From: an uncultured Clostridia bacterium
GTDB lineage: Bacteria > Bacillota > Clostridia > Oscillospirales > Ruminococcaceae
Length of the DNA stretch: 64,000 bases
NCBI GenBank assembly: GCA_947589215.1
Contig: CANQCL010000004.1
Location: forward strand, 1 to 64,000
Direction: 5' to 3'
Positions 49,903 through 56,306 of the stretch are shown in pieces; position 1 is the first letter of the stretch; each line of letters begins with the position of its first letter. The notes under the pieces were generated by a model that worked only from the letters and a program-made list of their open reading frames with translations, was not told the origin of the DNA and searched no databases. A program made the position numbers and the translations under genes.

Positions 49903-49937
49903 ATTTGTGTTTAAAAAATCAAAATTGGAGGATTATT

Positions 49938-51359
49938 ATGAAGTACGATGTAAAGTCTATGAAGGCAGAGGAATTTATCAACGACGCTGAGATATTAGAC
50001 ACCTTGAAAGAGGCAGAGAAGCGTAAAGACGATAAGGAATATGTTATGTCGCTTATCGAGAGGGCAAGAGACTGCAAAGGTTTAAGCCACAGAGAAGCTG
50101 CGGTACTGCTCGAATGTGAAATTCCGGAATGTATTGAGGCTATGGAAAAGACGGCAATGGAGATAAAGGAGAAGCTGTACGGTGACAGAATAGTAATGTT
50201 TGCACCTCTGTATCTTTCTAACTATTGTGTAAACGGCTGTACATACTGCCCGTATCATCACTGCAACAAGCATATAGCAAGAAAGAAACTCACTCAGGAG
50301 GAAATCAAAAAAGAGGTCATAGCCCTTCAGGATATGGGACATAAAAGGCTTGCTATTGAATCGGGCGAGGATCCTGTGAATAATCCTATTGAGTATATTT
50401 TAGAGAGCATAAAAACTATATATTCTATAAATCATAAAAACGGCGCTATCAGACGAGTTAATGTAAATATTGCGGCAACGACGGTAGAAAACTACAGAAA
50501 GCTAAAGGAAGCAGGAATCGGTACATATATCCTCTTTCAGGAGACTTATAACAAACACGATTACGAGCTTTTGCACCCGACAGGTCCTAAGCACAATTAC
50601 GCTTACCACACTGAGGCTATGGACAGAGCAATGGAGGGCGGAATTGACGACGTAGGAATCGGAGTTTTGTTCGGTCTTGAGATGTATAAATACGATTTTG
50701 TAGGTCTTTTGATGCACGCAGAGCATTTGGAGGCTGTTCACGGGGTAGGTCCGCATACAATTTCAGTGCCGAGAATATGCGGTGCTGACGATATTGATAA
50801 GGCTGACTTTTCAAATGCTATCTCAGACGATATTTTCGCAAAACTGGTAGCGGTAATAAGAATCGCCGTTCCGTATACTGGAATGATAATTTCAACCCGA
50901 GAGTCTAAGAAGTCAAGAGAAAGGGTTTTAAAGCTTGGAGTTTCTCAAATCAGCGGAGGTTCCCGAACGAGCGTCGGCGGTTATGTTGACCCCGAGCCTG
51001 AGGAGGAAAACTCTGCTCAGTTTGACGTTACCGACACAAGAACATTAGATGAGGTCGTAAACTGGCTTTTGGAAATGGGTTATATTCCGAGCTTTTGTAC
51101 GGCTTGCTACCGTGAGGGCAGAACAGGCGACAGGTTTATGAGTTTGTGCAAATCGGGTCAGATAGCAAACTGCTGTCAGCCGAATGCTCTTATGACATTA
51201 AAGGAGTATCTTGAGGATTATGCCAGTGAGGATACAAGACGAAAGGGAGAGGCCTTGATTCAAAAGCAGCTTGAGCTTATCCCCAATGAAAAGACCAGAA
51301 GAATAGCCAAAGAGAGAATTGAAAAGATACATTTAGGCGAGCGTGATTTCAGATTTTAA
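49938..51359 (+). CDS. hydG: [FeFe] hydrogenase H-cluster radical SAM maturase HydG
   Basis: 473 residues. It cleaves tyrosine to supply CO and CN ligands for the H-cluster. A radical SAM cluster motif NYCVNGCTYCPYH lies near residue 95. The C-terminal HydG-specific second cluster site is CTACYREGRTGDRF near 387 with a third Cys about 22 residues later (ANCCQ). It is preceded by the SQISGGSRTSVGGY segment. ATG 49938 follows TTGGAGGA; an in-frame start at 49905 falls in the intergenic repeat. In the operon between hydE and hydF. Confidence 0.95.
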   Translation: MKYDVKSMKAEEFINDAEILDTLKEAEKRKDDKEYVMSLIERARDCKGLSHREAAVLLECEIPECIEAMEKTAMEIKEKLYGDRIVMFAPLYLSNYCVNGCTYCPYHHCNKHIARKKLTQEEIKKEVIALQDMGHKRLAIESGEDPVNNPIEYILESIKTIYSINHKNGAIRRVNVNIAATTVENYRKLKEAGIGTYILFQETYNKHDYELLHPTGPKHNYAYHTEAMDRAMEGGIDDVGIGVLFGLEMYKYDFVGLLMHAEHLEAVHGVGPHTISVPRICGADDIDKADFSNAISDDIFAKLVAVIRIAVPYTGMIISTRESKKSRERVLKLGVSQISGGSRTSVGGYVDPEPEEENSAQFDVTDTRTLDEVVNWLLEMGYIPSFCTACYREGRTGDRFMSLCKSGQIANCCQPNALMTLKEYLEDYASEDTRRKGEALIQKQLELIPNEKTRRIAKERIEKIHLGERDFRF

Positions 51360-51399
51360 TTAAGTGTAACGAGGGAAATTTTTGAAAGGCGGAATGTTT

Positions 51400-52599
51400 A
51401 TGCCGACATTAAATGAAACACCAAGATCAGACAGACTTCATGTAGGCTTTTTCGGAAAGAGAAATGCGGGGAAGTCAACGCTTATAAATGCTTTTGCGAA
51501 ACAGCAAATATCAATAGTGTCAGATGTCGCCGGAACGACGACCGATCCTGTGTTTAAGTCTATGGAGATAGCAGGGATAGGCGCTTGTGTGCTGATTGAT
51601 ACAGCAGGATTTGACGATATAGGCGAGCTTGGAAAAATCAGAGTTGAAAAGACAAAAAAAGCGGCTGAAAAAACAGATATTGCAGTAATACTATTTTCCG
51701 ATTCAGATATAAAAAAAGAGCTTGAGTGGTTTGAATATTTCAAGAAAAAGGGTACGCCTGTTCTGCTGGTAATAAGCAAAGCTGATACTCTGTCAAGTGA
51801 TGAAATTTCACAAATAAGCTCTGAGGTTAAAAAGGCAACAAACAAAGAACCATTGGTTGTAAGCGCTGAGAATGAGAGAATAACAGAAAGGTTTAAAGAA
51901 AATCTGATACGTCTTATACCTGAGGATTTTGGCAGCAGAAGTATAACGGGGGATTTAGTAGGTGACGGCGATTTGGTGCTTCTGGTAATGCCTCAGGATA
52001 TACAGGCGCCTAAGGGCAGGCTTATACTTCCTCAGGTTCAGACAATTCGTGATTTGCTTGATAAAAAATGTATTGTTATGAGCTGCACTACAGACAGGCT
52101 TGATAAAGCTTTAAATGCTTTGGCTTATCCTCCTAAGTTGATAATTACCGATTCGCAGGTGTTTAAAACGGTTTATGAAAAAAAGCCAAAGGAAAGTATG
52201 CTGACTTCCTTTTCAACTCTGTTTGCAGGGTATAAGGGAGATTTGGAATATTATATAAAATCCGCAGAGACTGTAGAGATGCTGACTGAAAAGTCAAAGG
52301 TTCTTATTGCAGAGGCTTGTACCCATGCGCCTTTAGCAGAGGATATTGGCAGAGAAAAGATACCGAGAATGTTGAGAAAAAAGGTCGGGGAGGGACTAAA
52401 AATCGACGTTGTGGGCGGTTCTGATTTTCCTGATGATTTAACAGAGTATGATTTGATAATTCAGTGCGGAGCGTGTATGTTTAACAGAAAATATGTACTT
52501 TCACGAATTGACAAGGCAAAGGCACAAGGCGTGCCTATGTCAAATTACGGAGTTATAATTGCTTATTTGAATAATATTTTAGATAAAATTTCATATTAA
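51400..52599 (+). CDS. hydF: [FeFe] hydrogenase H-cluster maturation GTPase HydF
   Basis: 399 residues. It is a scaffold that carries the 2Fe subcluster precursor to apo-hydrogenase. The N-terminal GTPase has the P-loop GKRNAGKST near 17, AGTTTDP near 45, DTAGFDD near 68 and SKAD near 128. The C-terminal iron-sulfur site shows CTH near residue 309 and CGAC near 364. The residue before CGAC, usually His in HydF, is Gln here. ATG 51400 follows AAAGGCGG by 7 bases; in-frame TTG 51382 and ATG 51394 lie upstream of or too close to that site. Last gene of the hyd operon. Confidence 0.93.
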   Translation: MPTLNETPRSDRLHVGFFGKRNAGKSTLINAFAKQQISIVSDVAGTTTDPVFKSMEIAGIGACVLIDTAGFDDIGELGKIRVEKTKKAAEKTDIAVILFSDSDIKKELEWFEYFKKKGTPVLLVISKADTLSSDEISQISSEVKKATNKEPLVVSAENERITERFKENLIRLIPEDFGSRSITGDLVGDGDLVLLVMPQDIQAPKGRLILPQVQTIRDLLDKKCIVMSCTTDRLDKALNALAYPPKLIITDSQVFKTVYEKKPKESMLTSFSTLFAGYKGDLEYYIKSAETVEMLTEKSKVLIAEACTHAPLAEDIGREKIPRMLRKKVGEGLKIDVVGGSDFPDDLTEYDLIIQCGACMFNRKYVLSRIDKAKAQGVPMSNYGVIIAYLNNILDKISY

Positions 52600-52603
52600 A
52601 AAT

Positions 52604-52625
52604 GGCTGATGAATATTCATCAGCC
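52604..52625. terminator. Perfect palindrome, possible terminator after hydF
   Basis: GGCTGATGAAT is followed directly by its reverse complement ATTCATCAGCC, just past the hydF stop. There is no T-run, so termination may depend on the structured element that follows. Confidence 0.5.
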
Positions 52626-52742: not shown

Positions 52743-53486
52743 TTATTTTCTCGTAGTTTTTATTCCGTTTAATATGATCTTTTTAGCTTTTAAAGCGTCC
52801 TCTTTAGAAAGCGGAGGAGTATCTTTTAATGGGTAATCTATTCCAAGCGCTTGATATTTAGACTTTCCCATATCGTGGTAAGCTAAAACGTCTATCGACT
52901 TTAAATTTTTAAGCGTTCCGATGTATTTACCCAGATCAAAGAGATAATGCTCATCATAGGTTATGCCCGGCACAACTACATGACGTATACATACAGGAAC
53001 ATTTTTCTCTTCGAGAAATTTAGTAAAATCGAGTATGTTTTTGTTCGAGAAGCCGGTGAGTTTTTTGTGTTCATCATCGTCTATGTGCTTTATATCAAGA
53101 AGCACAAGATCAGTGTATTTGACAAGCTCGTTAAATTCTTTGACTTTTTTCTTGTTATCCTTATCAAACAAGACGCCCGATGTATCAATGCAGGTGTGGA
53201 TTTTTTGGGATTTAGCGGCTTTGAAAAGTTCGGTTACAAACTTCATCTGCAAAAGCGGTTCTCCGCCGCTGACTGTTATTCCGCCGTTTCTGTAAAAACT
53301 CTTTTTTGAGTTATATTTTGAAAGTATCTCTTTAACGCTTATTTCCTCTCCGCCTGTCATATCCCAAGTGTCAGGATTATGACAATACTGACACCGCATT
53401 GGGCAACCCTTTGTGAAAATAACCATTCTCACTCCCGGACCGTCTACTGTTCCGAAGCTTTCTATTGAATGTATGTGACCATGCAT
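52743..53486 (-). CDS. pflA: Pyruvate formate-lyase activating enzyme
   Basis: 247 residues. It is a radical SAM enzyme that installs the glycyl radical on pyruvate formate-lyase. FTKGCPMRCQYCHNPDTW near residues 25-42 holds the CxxxCxxC cluster site. ESFGTVDGPGVR near the N-terminus and ITVSGGEPLLQ near 70 are typical. It lies last in a minus-strand operon after the split pfl genes. Its substrate here should be the separately encoded glycyl-radical domain at 53519. Ribosome site GGAGAG. Confidence 0.95.
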   Translation of the reverse strand: MHGHIHSIESFGTVDGPGVRMVIFTKGCPMRCQYCHNPDTWDMTGGEEISVKEILSKYNSKKSFYRNGGITVSGGEPLLQMKFVTELFKAAKSQKIHTCIDTSGVLFDKDNKKKVKEFNELVKYTDLVLLDIKHIDDDEHKKLTGFSNKNILDFTKFLEEKNVPVCIRHVVVPGITYDEHYLFDLGKYIGTLKNLKSIDVLAYHDMGKSKYQALGIDYPLKDTPPLSKEDALKAKKIILNGIKTTRK

Positions 53487-53518: not shown

Positions 53519-53770
53519 TTATAGCTTATCGTGGAATGTTCTTGAAATTACCTCGTCCTGCTGTGCTTTTGTAAGCTTGACAAAATTCACTGCATACCCG
53601 GATACACGGACAGTAAGCTGAGGGTATTTCTCAGGGTGCTTTTGTGCGTCTATTAAAGTTTCACGGGACAACACATTTATATTAAGGTGGTGTCCTCCTT
53701 CCTCTGCATATCCGTCTAAAATTGAAACTAGATTGTCTATTTGTTCTTTATTTGCCTTTACCTTTGACAT
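53519..53770 (-). CDS. Stand-alone glycyl-radical domain of pyruvate formate-lyase
   Basis: 83 residues. The whole protein aligns in character with the C-terminal end of pyruvate formate-lyase: [34 protein letters not shown], then [13 protein letters not shown] near residues 55-67 with the radical-bearing Gly, and ISRTFHDKL at the end. It has its own AGGAGG site and ATG, so it is an independent gene and not a frameshift fragment. It is similar in size to the tail-repair protein GrcA/YfiD, but the large subunit upstream lacks this domain, so here it is probably an obligate subunit rather than a spare part (inference). Confidence 0.9.
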
Positions 53771-53800
53771 AATTATTCCTCCTAATTTTATTCACTGTAA

Positions 53801-54034
53801 TTATTGAAGAAGCTCGTCGCCGCCGTCTAATCCCTCAAACAATGTAGGCGAACTGCAAGCTGTGTTTCCTTCCATACAGTCTAGTGATTTAGATACTGAA
53901 ACCTTTTTGCGGTTGCCGTTAAATTTCACACCGCCGTTGCTGTTTACCTTAATGTTCATATGTCCGCCCTTTTTAGACATAAAATCATCAAGCATTGCTA
54001 CGATATCATCTATTCTCTCATCTGAAGTTTTCAT
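53801..54034 (-). CDS. Degenerate glycyl-domain paralogue, 77 residues
   Basis: The first ~28 residues (DERIDDIVAMLDDFMSKKGGHMNIKV) match the start of the neighbouring glycyl-radical domain protein, including the GGHxNI block. The rest differs: a basic stretch, then CMEGNTACSSPTLFEGLDGGDELL, and no RVSGYA motif, so no radical can form on it. A strong ACGGAGGT site precedes the ATG. It lies between the large subunit and the radical domain gene. It could be a linker subunit, a regulator or a decaying duplicate; I see no frameshift that would restore the missing motif. Confidence 0.7.
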   Translation of the reverse strand: MKTSDERIDDIVAMLDDFMSKKGGHMNIKVNSNGGVKFNGNRKKVSVSKSLDCMEGNTACSSPTLFEGLDGGDELLQ

Positions 54035-54060
54035 AATAACCTCCGTTATTTATTCTGTGT

Positions 54061-56142
54061 TTAATACTCTCTGTCAAAGCTGTCAGTTTCAGAAAGTTCA
54101 ATATCCACGTCAATATCGCCGACATAAATTTTATTGTCCTTTCCAAGCGATTCAGGAATAATTGAGAATGTATTTGAAATGCCGTCTTGAGCGTCTTTGA
54201 AAGGAAGCTTTGAAACCGACTTGAGCGACGCTACTGCGCCGTTTTTATCACGGGAGTGCATAGGGTTAGCTCCCGGAGCAAATGCCTCTCCGCCTTTGCG
54301 TCCGTCAGGCGTTGAGCCTGTGTTTTGCCCATAAACTACATTAGAAGTAATGGTAAGAATTGAAGTTGTAGGTATGCCGCCCCGATAGGTATGGTTACCT
54401 TTGATGTAGTTCATAAAGATGTGAACTATATCGCTTGCTATTTCATCTACTCTGTCGTCATCGTTTCCGTATCTGGGAAAGTCCCCTTCGATCTCATAAT
54501 CTACGGCGATACCCTGCTCGTTTCTTATTGGCTTTACCTTTGCATATTTTATTGCCGAAAGCGAATCCGCAACAACCGAAAGTCCTGCAATTCCCGTAGC
54601 AAACCACCTTGTGACCTTCTTGTCGTGGAGAGCCATTTGTATTCTCTCATAGCAGTATTTATCGTGCATATAGTGAATGATATTAAGTGCGTTCACATAA
54701 ACCGAAGCGAGCCACTTCATCATATCCTTGAATTTATCCATAACCTCTTTGTAGTCGAGATATTCTGACTTTATAGGTCTGTATTTAGGACCTATCTGCT
54801 TCATTGAAATTTCATCAACGCCGCCGTTTATAGCGTAAAGAAGGCATTTTGCAAGATTCGCTCTAGCACCGAAAAACTGCATTTCTTTGCCTATTCTCAT
54901 AGAAGATACACAGCAGGCGATTGCATAGTCGTCTCCGTGAGTCACTCTCATAAGGTCGTCGTTTTCGTATTGAATTGATGATGATTCTATTGAAGTTTTA
55001 GCGCAGAATCTTTTGAAATTATCAGGCAGGTTTACTGACCATAGAATTGTAAGGTTCGGTTCAGGAGCAGTGCCGAGATTTTCAAGCGTGTGAAGATACC
55101 TAAACGACATCTTTGTTACCATATGCCGTCCGTCGACTCCGATGCCTCCTATTGATTCTGTTACCCAAGTTGGATCACCCGAGAAAAGCTCGTTATATTC
55201 CGGTGTTCTTGCAAATTTTACAAGTCTTAGCTTCATTATGAAGTGATCGACAAACTCTTGGATCTGCTCCTCTGTAAACGTGCCGTTTTTAAGGTCACGC
55301 TCTGCGTAAATATCAAGAAAAGTTGAGGTTCTGCCCAGTGACATTGCTGCGCCGTTTTGCTCCTTAACTGCTGCTAGGTATGCAAGGTATGTCCACTGAA
55401 TTGCCTCCTGAACGTTTTGTGCCGGCTTTGAAATGTCAAAGCCGTAAATTTTACCCAGTTCAATAAGCTCTCCTAATGCCCTTATCTGTTCGGAAAGCTC
55501 CTCACGTTCACGGATAACGTCGGAGTACATTGTTATTCTTGTTGAATCCTTTTGGTGCTGCTTGTCTTCAATAAGCTTGTCAACTCCGTAAAGAGCAACC
55601 CGCCTGTAGTCTCCTATAATTCTTCCCCTGCCGTAAGCGTCGGGAAGTCCTGTTATAATGTGGCTGGAACGGCAGGCTCTCATTTCAGGCGTGTATGCGT
55701 CAAATACGCCTTGATTGTGGGTTTTTCTATGAACGGTGTAGAATTTGCAGATGTCAGGGTCTACCTCATAACCATTCTCTGAGCAGGCCTTCATTGCCAT
55801 ACGGATCCCGCCGTTAGGCTGTAAAGCTCTTTTAAAGGGCTTATCCGTCTGAAAGCCGACTATCTTTTCCTTATCCTTATTAAGATATCCGGGACCGTGC
55901 GAGGTTATGGTCGAAATGATTTTAGTGTCCATATCCAGAACTCCGCCGGCTTCACGCTCTTTTTTTGTTAATTCCATAACCTGCTCCCAGAGGTCTTTTG
56001 TGGCTTGAGTAGGTCCGGCAAGAAATTTTTCGTCCCCGTCATACGGTTCATAGTTTTTTTGAATAAAGTCACGGACGTTTATCTCCCTTTTCCAAACACC
56101 GTGATTAAATCCATTCCATTCTTCAAAATTCATTGTTTTCAT
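54061..56142 (-). CDS. pflB: Pyruvate formate-lyase large part, lacking the glycyl-radical domain
   Basis: 693 residues against roughly 740-760 for the usual single-chain enzyme. It converts pyruvate and CoA to acetyl-CoA and formate. The catalytic Cys-Cys pair is in [12 protein letters not shown] near residue 410. RTSTFLDIY and [14 protein letters not shown] are also typical. It ends after [27 protein letters not shown], the point where intact enzymes run on into the glycyl-radical domain, which is absent. That domain is at 53519. ATG 56142 was chosen; an in-frame TTG at 56163 is possible. Upstream lies a perfect palindrome at 56287 that may control the operon. Confidence 0.93.
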
Positions 56143-56286: not shown

Positions 56287-56306
56287 AAACACTATATATA
56301 GTGTTT
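56287..56306. promoter_or_regulatory. Perfect 20-bp palindrome, NrdR-box-like, upstream of pfl
   Basis: AAACACTATATATAGTGTTT is a perfect palindrome. The core ACACTATATATAGTGT fits the published NrdR-box shape acaCwAtATaTwGtgt as I recall it. A related site with three differences lies at 56638-56657. A CRP/FNR-family target is the other possibility. Confidence 0.6.

Follow-up and report, generated by a model that had tools for sequence, protein, structure and literature searches.

Pyruvate formate-lyase (PFL), central to fermentation in gut bacteria, supplies many anaerobes with formate and acetyl-CoA and is a textbook example of a radical enzyme labile to oxygen. In the E. coli enzyme PflB, which is a single chain, a Cys-Cys pair and the radical Gly come together within the barrel. 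Separate radical domains are represented by GrcA/YfiD of E. coli and by the NCBIfam family GrcA3. In the excerpt of a study of the E. coli system that is cited here, binding of YfiD to PFL cut at residue 695 was not detected and residues 696-733 were proposed as a recognition element (PMC8683613). The locus described here, located within a window of 64,000 nucleotides of a contig from an uncultured Clostridia bacterium (family Ruminococcaceae), shares with E. coli PflB the barrel family, the Cys-Cys pair, the RVSGYAV radical loop and PflA, but differs from it in that the chain is cut at E. coli position 680/682 and a cysteine-pair (Cys) module is added.

The locus consists of four genes that follow one another on the minus strand in the order pflB, a 77-aa open reading frame (ORF) denoted Mid, grcA3 and pflA, with intergenic gaps of 26-32 bases. 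The pflB gene (54061-56136) encodes a catalytic chain of 691 aa from its ATG, without a radical domain, in which the codons of the active-site residues Cys408-Cys409 (E. coli C418-C419) occupy positions 54910-54915. Mid (53801-54034) is preceded by a GGAGG ribosome-binding site (54040-54044), and the stretch from the Cys60 codon to the Cys53 codon, conserved in alignments as the DCMEGNTACSSPTLFEGLD motif, lies at 53855-53878. The grcA3 gene (53519-53770) encodes the separate 83-aa glycyl-radical subunit, with an AGGAGG ribosome-binding site (53778-53783) upstream of the ATG and the codon of the radical Gly58 (RVSGYAV) at 53597-53599. The next gene on the same strand is pflA (52743-53486), for the activating enzyme (TIGR02493, 291.7 bits against a cut-off of 231.75), in agreement with the original prediction that grcA3 adjoins pflA. 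That prediction had counted two genes in the interval; pflB and grcA3 are real, and the third ORF, Mid, had been overlooked. A terminator-like hairpin downstream of pflA (52604-52625, minus strand) and promoter-like sites upstream of pflB come solely from a consensus scan with counts near the shuffled-sequence level (7 sites in the region against 3.7 expected in shuffles). Tail to tail with the pfl operon, on the plus strand (49905-52599), are two genes whose translations, judged by eye, resemble the hydrogenase maturases HydG and HydF.

Alignment with E. coli PFL pairs residues 6-670 of the large chain with residues 10-680, and residues 11-81 of the 83 residues of GrcA3 with residues 682-757; the cut between the chains is clean and directly precedes the first helix of the radical domain. 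The large chain alone exceeds the TIGR01255 cut-off (1103 against 994.2 bits), and the two chains jointly cover this model (2-667 in the large chain and 661-744 in GrcA3). The Pfam Gly_radical profile is likewise divided, with positions 1-51 on the large chain and 49-106 on GrcA3. The 83-aa protein exceeds the cut-off of the GrcA3 model NF038360 (163.4 against 158 bits) and falls below those of the GrcA (94.4 against 170) and GrcA2 (106.6 against 145) models. Thus, the main claims of the original prediction hold: the large chain stops at E. coli position 680, the radical domain is an 83-aa gene with its own AGGAGG and ATG, and both catalytic motifs are present, one per chain rather than on a single polypeptide, with Cys408-Cys409 on the large chain and Gly58 in the RVSGYAV loop of the small one. 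The active-site Cys pair is kept in all 63 split and all 18 fused chains of an alignment of 81 sequences with a sufficiently long large chain, taken from the window and 80 loci. GrcA3 has about 10 residues ahead of the conserved IDNL helix and, unlike GrcA/YfiD, has no long N-terminal arm and no full-length partner that we could find in this genome, and carries the helix matching E. coli residues 682-695. Because binding of YfiD to PFL cut at 695 went undetected in the cited excerpt (PMC8683613), the natural split is set apart from the E. coli case.

Profile searches of the genome (1.98 Mb, 99.99 % complete) with PF02901, PF01228 and TIGR01255 detected neither a second nor a full-length PFL. 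PF02901 produced a single match, TIGR01255 produced two, which are the two PFL pieces, and the sole other match of PF01228 (Gly_radical) is the C-terminus of what appears, judged by sequence, to be an anaerobic ribonucleotide reductase. Because no other PFL was found in the genome, GrcA3 is best read as an obligate subunit and not as a spare part. The notion that GrcA3 replaces the damaged portion of an oxygen-cut PFL is implied by its NCBIfam name, 'autonomous glycyl radical cofactor GrcA3', under which the gene is annotated in Collinsella, but it is at odds with the failure to find a full-length PFL here and with the large chains beside separate grcA3 genes, which end ahead of the radical domain; we consider it highly improbable and reject it for this genome. 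Very probably, as far as sequence comparison can tell, the catalytic barrel with its Cys-Cys pair is one protein and the glycyl-radical domain another; the latter, the only PFL-type radical domain found in the genome, would function as a subunit once activated by PflA.

The arrangement recurs in related genomes. The GrcA3 model matched at E 0.001 in 213 of the 297 genomes of the family, and among the matches listed, a short separate grcA3 gene was present in at least 54 of the 297; a 112-aa frame in genome G232 was not counted because, close to the end of its contig, it continues out of sequence resembling PFL. In 47 of these 54 genomes, the matches listed for NF038360 at E 0.001 include no second one. 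The large chains adjoining separate grcA3 genes stop ahead of the radical domain, and those of the close relatives L035 and L147 are split at the same point, as is L146 up to the contig limit. A sequencing artefact or frameshift is ruled out by the separate gene in at least 54 of 297 genomes and by the relatives split at the identical point. With the pair conserved in relatives and no full-length PFL found, the proposal of a catalytic chain plus a radical subunit, as opposed to a spare-part system, is borne out.

The split itself is not new, because NCBI names such pieces GrcA3 and two chains lacking the radical domain are present in the PDB; the interpretation of the split offered originally is supported, with the correction that the arrangement was already known at the level of annotation (NCBIfam GrcA3, PDB 38la/38lb). 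A GrcA3 annotation is found beside pflB in Collinsella aerofaciens. The best PDB matches to the large chain are 38la_A and 38lb_A, both named 'Formate acetyltransferase', which are absent from the 34 PDB matches of the radical subunit; no radical domain was detectable in either, so large chains of this kind are already represented by structures. The tail of 38lb reads GECDMCEM, and a plasmid search with part of 38lb gave a nearest match of 73 % identity. In fold searches E. coli PFL ranked at the top, and 38la and 38lb were not among the 50 matches listed; both are probably newer than the fold library, which is dated to 2026-04-08. We found no paper on 38la/38lb and, in a search confined to open-access texts, no text on split PFL or on Mid.

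Mid had no Pfam or PHROG match, and no family model was found for it; in NCBIfam, its first part alone gave a sub-threshold match to GrcA3. Among 38 Mids, weak GrcA3 matches were obtained for 15 and a weak Pfam Gly_radical match for 1. Direct comparison of the Mid and radical subunit profiles with hhalign resulted in a probability of 95 % (E 4e-8) over 28 columns that encompass a helix and a GGHxNVxV strand. Judging from this profile similarity, the first half of Mid and the beginning of the radical domain are homologous, but in Mid a Cys-pair motif stands in place of the radical loop. The motif is mostly C-x5-6-C, with Ala preceding the second Cys and Pro three residues beyond it; in many cases T-L-x-x-G-L-D and an acidic C-terminus come next. 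The second Cys lies 6-26 residues from the end of the protein. C53 and C60 are both invariant in an alignment of 23 rows, whereas in one of 38 rows C60 is invariant and C53 is kept at 90 % or more; in these alignments His25 is also almost invariant, and some Mids have a third Cys. The AlphaFold model of Mid (mean pLDDT 68.5) consists of a helix (6-20), two strands (25-30 and 43-48) and an unstructured, low-confidence Cys loop. A PDB profile search seeded with Mid returned no glycyl radical enzyme, the best match being a designed protein (E 4e-5).

Given the homology of its first half to the radical domain, Mid could conceivably be a decaying remnant of the original domain, left behind after duplication into a separate gene. 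Several observations make this extremely unlikely. Among four close relatives, the dN/dS of Mid is 0.05-0.14, with dS over 1 in 5 of the 6 pairs, and Mid is under purifying selection; its motif is conserved across genera; and in three genomes (G190, G111 and G288) Mid and grcA3 are on different contigs and the surroundings of Mid that were retrieved contain no pflB, yet the Cys pair is retained. In the excerpt cited here, Anas et al. 2025 write that glycyl radical enzymes may have more accessory subunits that annotation has missed (PMC12590467), and Mid looks like such a subunit.

Examination of the other split enzymes indicates with high confidence that a third element, a Cys-pair module that is either Mid or a tail of the large chain, nearly always accompanies the split. 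Full-length Mid matches were detected in 42 of the 297 genomes of the family, 41 of them among the 54 genomes listed with a separate grcA3, where Mid is on another contig in three of the 41; in the 42nd (G283), the single case among the other 243 genomes, grcA3 is truncated by a contig end. Nearly all remaining matches of the Mid profile in the family stem from radical domains and are confined to their helix and strand. A separate grcA3 without Mid was listed for 13 genomes, in 12 of which the large chain ends in a tail with at least two Cys, whereas one (G177) has neither form; examples of such tails are DCACCEPN, LCENGACFSPTLFEGLD, CPSCANIPN and GCCEGIAE. In a sample of 398 genomes of the phylum, grcA3 scored above the cut-off in two, the same two contained a full-length Mid, and five further genomes matched the Mid model in the helix-strand part only. 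A collection of named loci (the best 80 of at least 588), with record titles that include Oscillospiraceae, Lachnospiraceae, Erysipelotrichaceae, Collinsella, Atopobiaceae, Gastranaerophilales and Spirochaetales, comprised 70 split loci, 2 fused ones and 8 without a large chain inside 1.5 kb. Within these best 80, the 70 visible split loci divide into 41 with Mid (L042, L051 and L067 being scored as such), 25 with a Cys tail and 4 with neither. The Cys module was thus not found in five split enzymes (G177, L076, L096, L108 and L113). In L076, pflA sits between the split large chain and grcA3. Among the 12 loci that have no module beside grcA3, 3 contain a gene for a thioredoxin-like protein next to grcA3 or pflB (L104, 5234-5572; L109, 4507-4863; L113, 2625-2936), against 0 of the 66 loci with a module there (Fisher p 0.003), a post hoc comparison that involves three loci, was seeded with those same three proteins and used flanks of unequal length.

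From the association between the module and the split, which was directly observed, we infer a mechanism. Departure of the detached radical domain would leave the active-site thiols exposed. Mid could act as a pseudo-radical subunit, with a helix and a strand matching those with which the radical subunit completes the barrel. During absence or activation of the radical subunit, or after its destruction by oxygen, the open active site would be filled by Mid (or the tail). Its dithiol might then maintain or restore the reduced state of Cys408-Cys409, or cap the pair through a mixed disulfide that is reversible, until a new radical subunit displaces the stand-in. This explanation, in which a thiol stand-in replaces the radical subunit and protects the active-site Cys-Cys pair or returns it to the reduced state, is the one we favor, with somewhat better than even confidence. 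Its components taken singly are more tentative: a dithiol redox role of the module is plausible and falls short of probable, and the same assessment applies to docking of Mid in the radical subunit's own site. Still more speculative is the full picture of an undescribed third subunit that alternates with GrcA3 at the active site and serves as guard and reset of an oxygen-sensitive enzyme.

In 59 Mids the second Cys is a median of 29 residues from the His of the strand; in GrcA3 the radical Gly is 30 residues from the corresponding His. On account of this correspondence the dithiol of Mid could come to the position that the radical of GrcA3 would otherwise take, although the range among Mids is wide (25-38). 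Flexible C-terminal tails that carry Cys pairs of variable spacing near a Cys active site are a feature of class I ribonucleotide reductase and mercuric reductase. As in these swinging dithiol tails, the Cys pair of the enzymes analyzed here is near a flexible C-terminus, but here the module is often a separate protein. In the AlphaFold model of L046, the Cys tail has a pLDDT of about 30-47 and is not placed, and no predicted structure puts the module in the barrel.

A role in docking or stapling would fit nearly as well as the thiol stand-in, although on the whole we regard it as rather unlikely. Under this explanation, Mid and the Cys tails are assembly or docking elements that tether the radical subunit close to the barrel or cover the edge of the barrel, with the Cys pair as a structural staple rather than a redox shuttle. 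The module tracks the separation of the radical domain, many Mids and tails have after the Cys pair a PTLxEGLD-like stretch that resembles a docking motif, and there is a parallel in residues 696-733 of cleaved E. coli PFL, the proposed recognition element for YfiD in the cited excerpt (PMC8683613). However, the two Cys are separated by anything from 0 to 8 residues in the various Mids and tails, which is unusual for a structural site, and tail-type enzymes lack the helix and strand of Mid. For the latter reason, and this counts against the favored explanation as well, the module cannot depend in general on docking where the radical subunit binds. It is also improbable that the module ligates a metal or an Fe-S cluster. 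Small accessory subunits have precedents among glycyl radical enzymes, and those of benzylsuccinate synthase and hydroxyphenylacetate decarboxylase, to which Mid is comparable as a small accessory protein, bind [4Fe-4S] according to the excerpt cited (PMC12590467); Mid differs from these subunits in its Cys pair, with just two Cys invariant or nearly so, and in its partial homology to the radical domain, and none of the 38 Mids matched an Fe-S family. If the thiol stand-in is real, the split PFLs of many gut anaerobes would alternate between radical-bearing and thiol-bearing partners, and the Cys module may show how radical enzymes protect an open active site. With the radical on a detachable 83-residue subunit, its installation, loss and replacement become directly testable.

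In a quick tree of the 81 large-chain cores, 15 fused PFLs of the family, including G164 and G231 from the same genus as the window, are placed apart from the remaining chains, 63 split and 3 fused, which group together. A strict single origin of the split state is not supported: a single clade of all 63 split chains is rejected (p-AU 0.00028), and the best quick tree nests the three fused chains (L115, L075 and L090) among them. We read these three as probable re-fusions; repeated splitting is the alternative interpretation of the same topology. The nested fused PFL L115 (genome G122) carries CDNC where its barrel meets the radical domain, whereas the joints of L075 and L090 are without Cys and these enzymes have no module. 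So the module appears, from these sequences, to occur with a detached radical domain and to have been lost or reduced in the three joined forms. The deepest split branch as drawn in the quick tree, L113, is without a module, and therefore the split may predate the module. Cys431, invariant in the 63 split chains and replaced by Ala in 15 of the 18 fused ones, was considered as a large-chain partner of the module and dismissed; the three nested fused chains also carry it, and therefore Cys431 marks a lineage.

Finally, the promoter region of pflB contains a perfect palindrome, ACACTATATATAGTGT (56289-56304), that resembles an NrdR box. The sequence ACACWATATATWGTGT has two exact sites in the genome, one upstream of pflB and the other between the apparent iscU and rsmD genes, and one further site with a mismatch. 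A two-mismatch copy (C12:25083-25098) about the expected start of the anaerobic ribonucleotide reductase gene is not significant when taken alone (30 of 200 shuffles). Copies with 0-1 mismatch are located upstream of pflB in L035, L146, L147 and L046; such copies are thus present in 4 of 64 upstream regions of at least 300 bases against 3 of 1600 shuffled controls, and NrdR is encoded in the genome.
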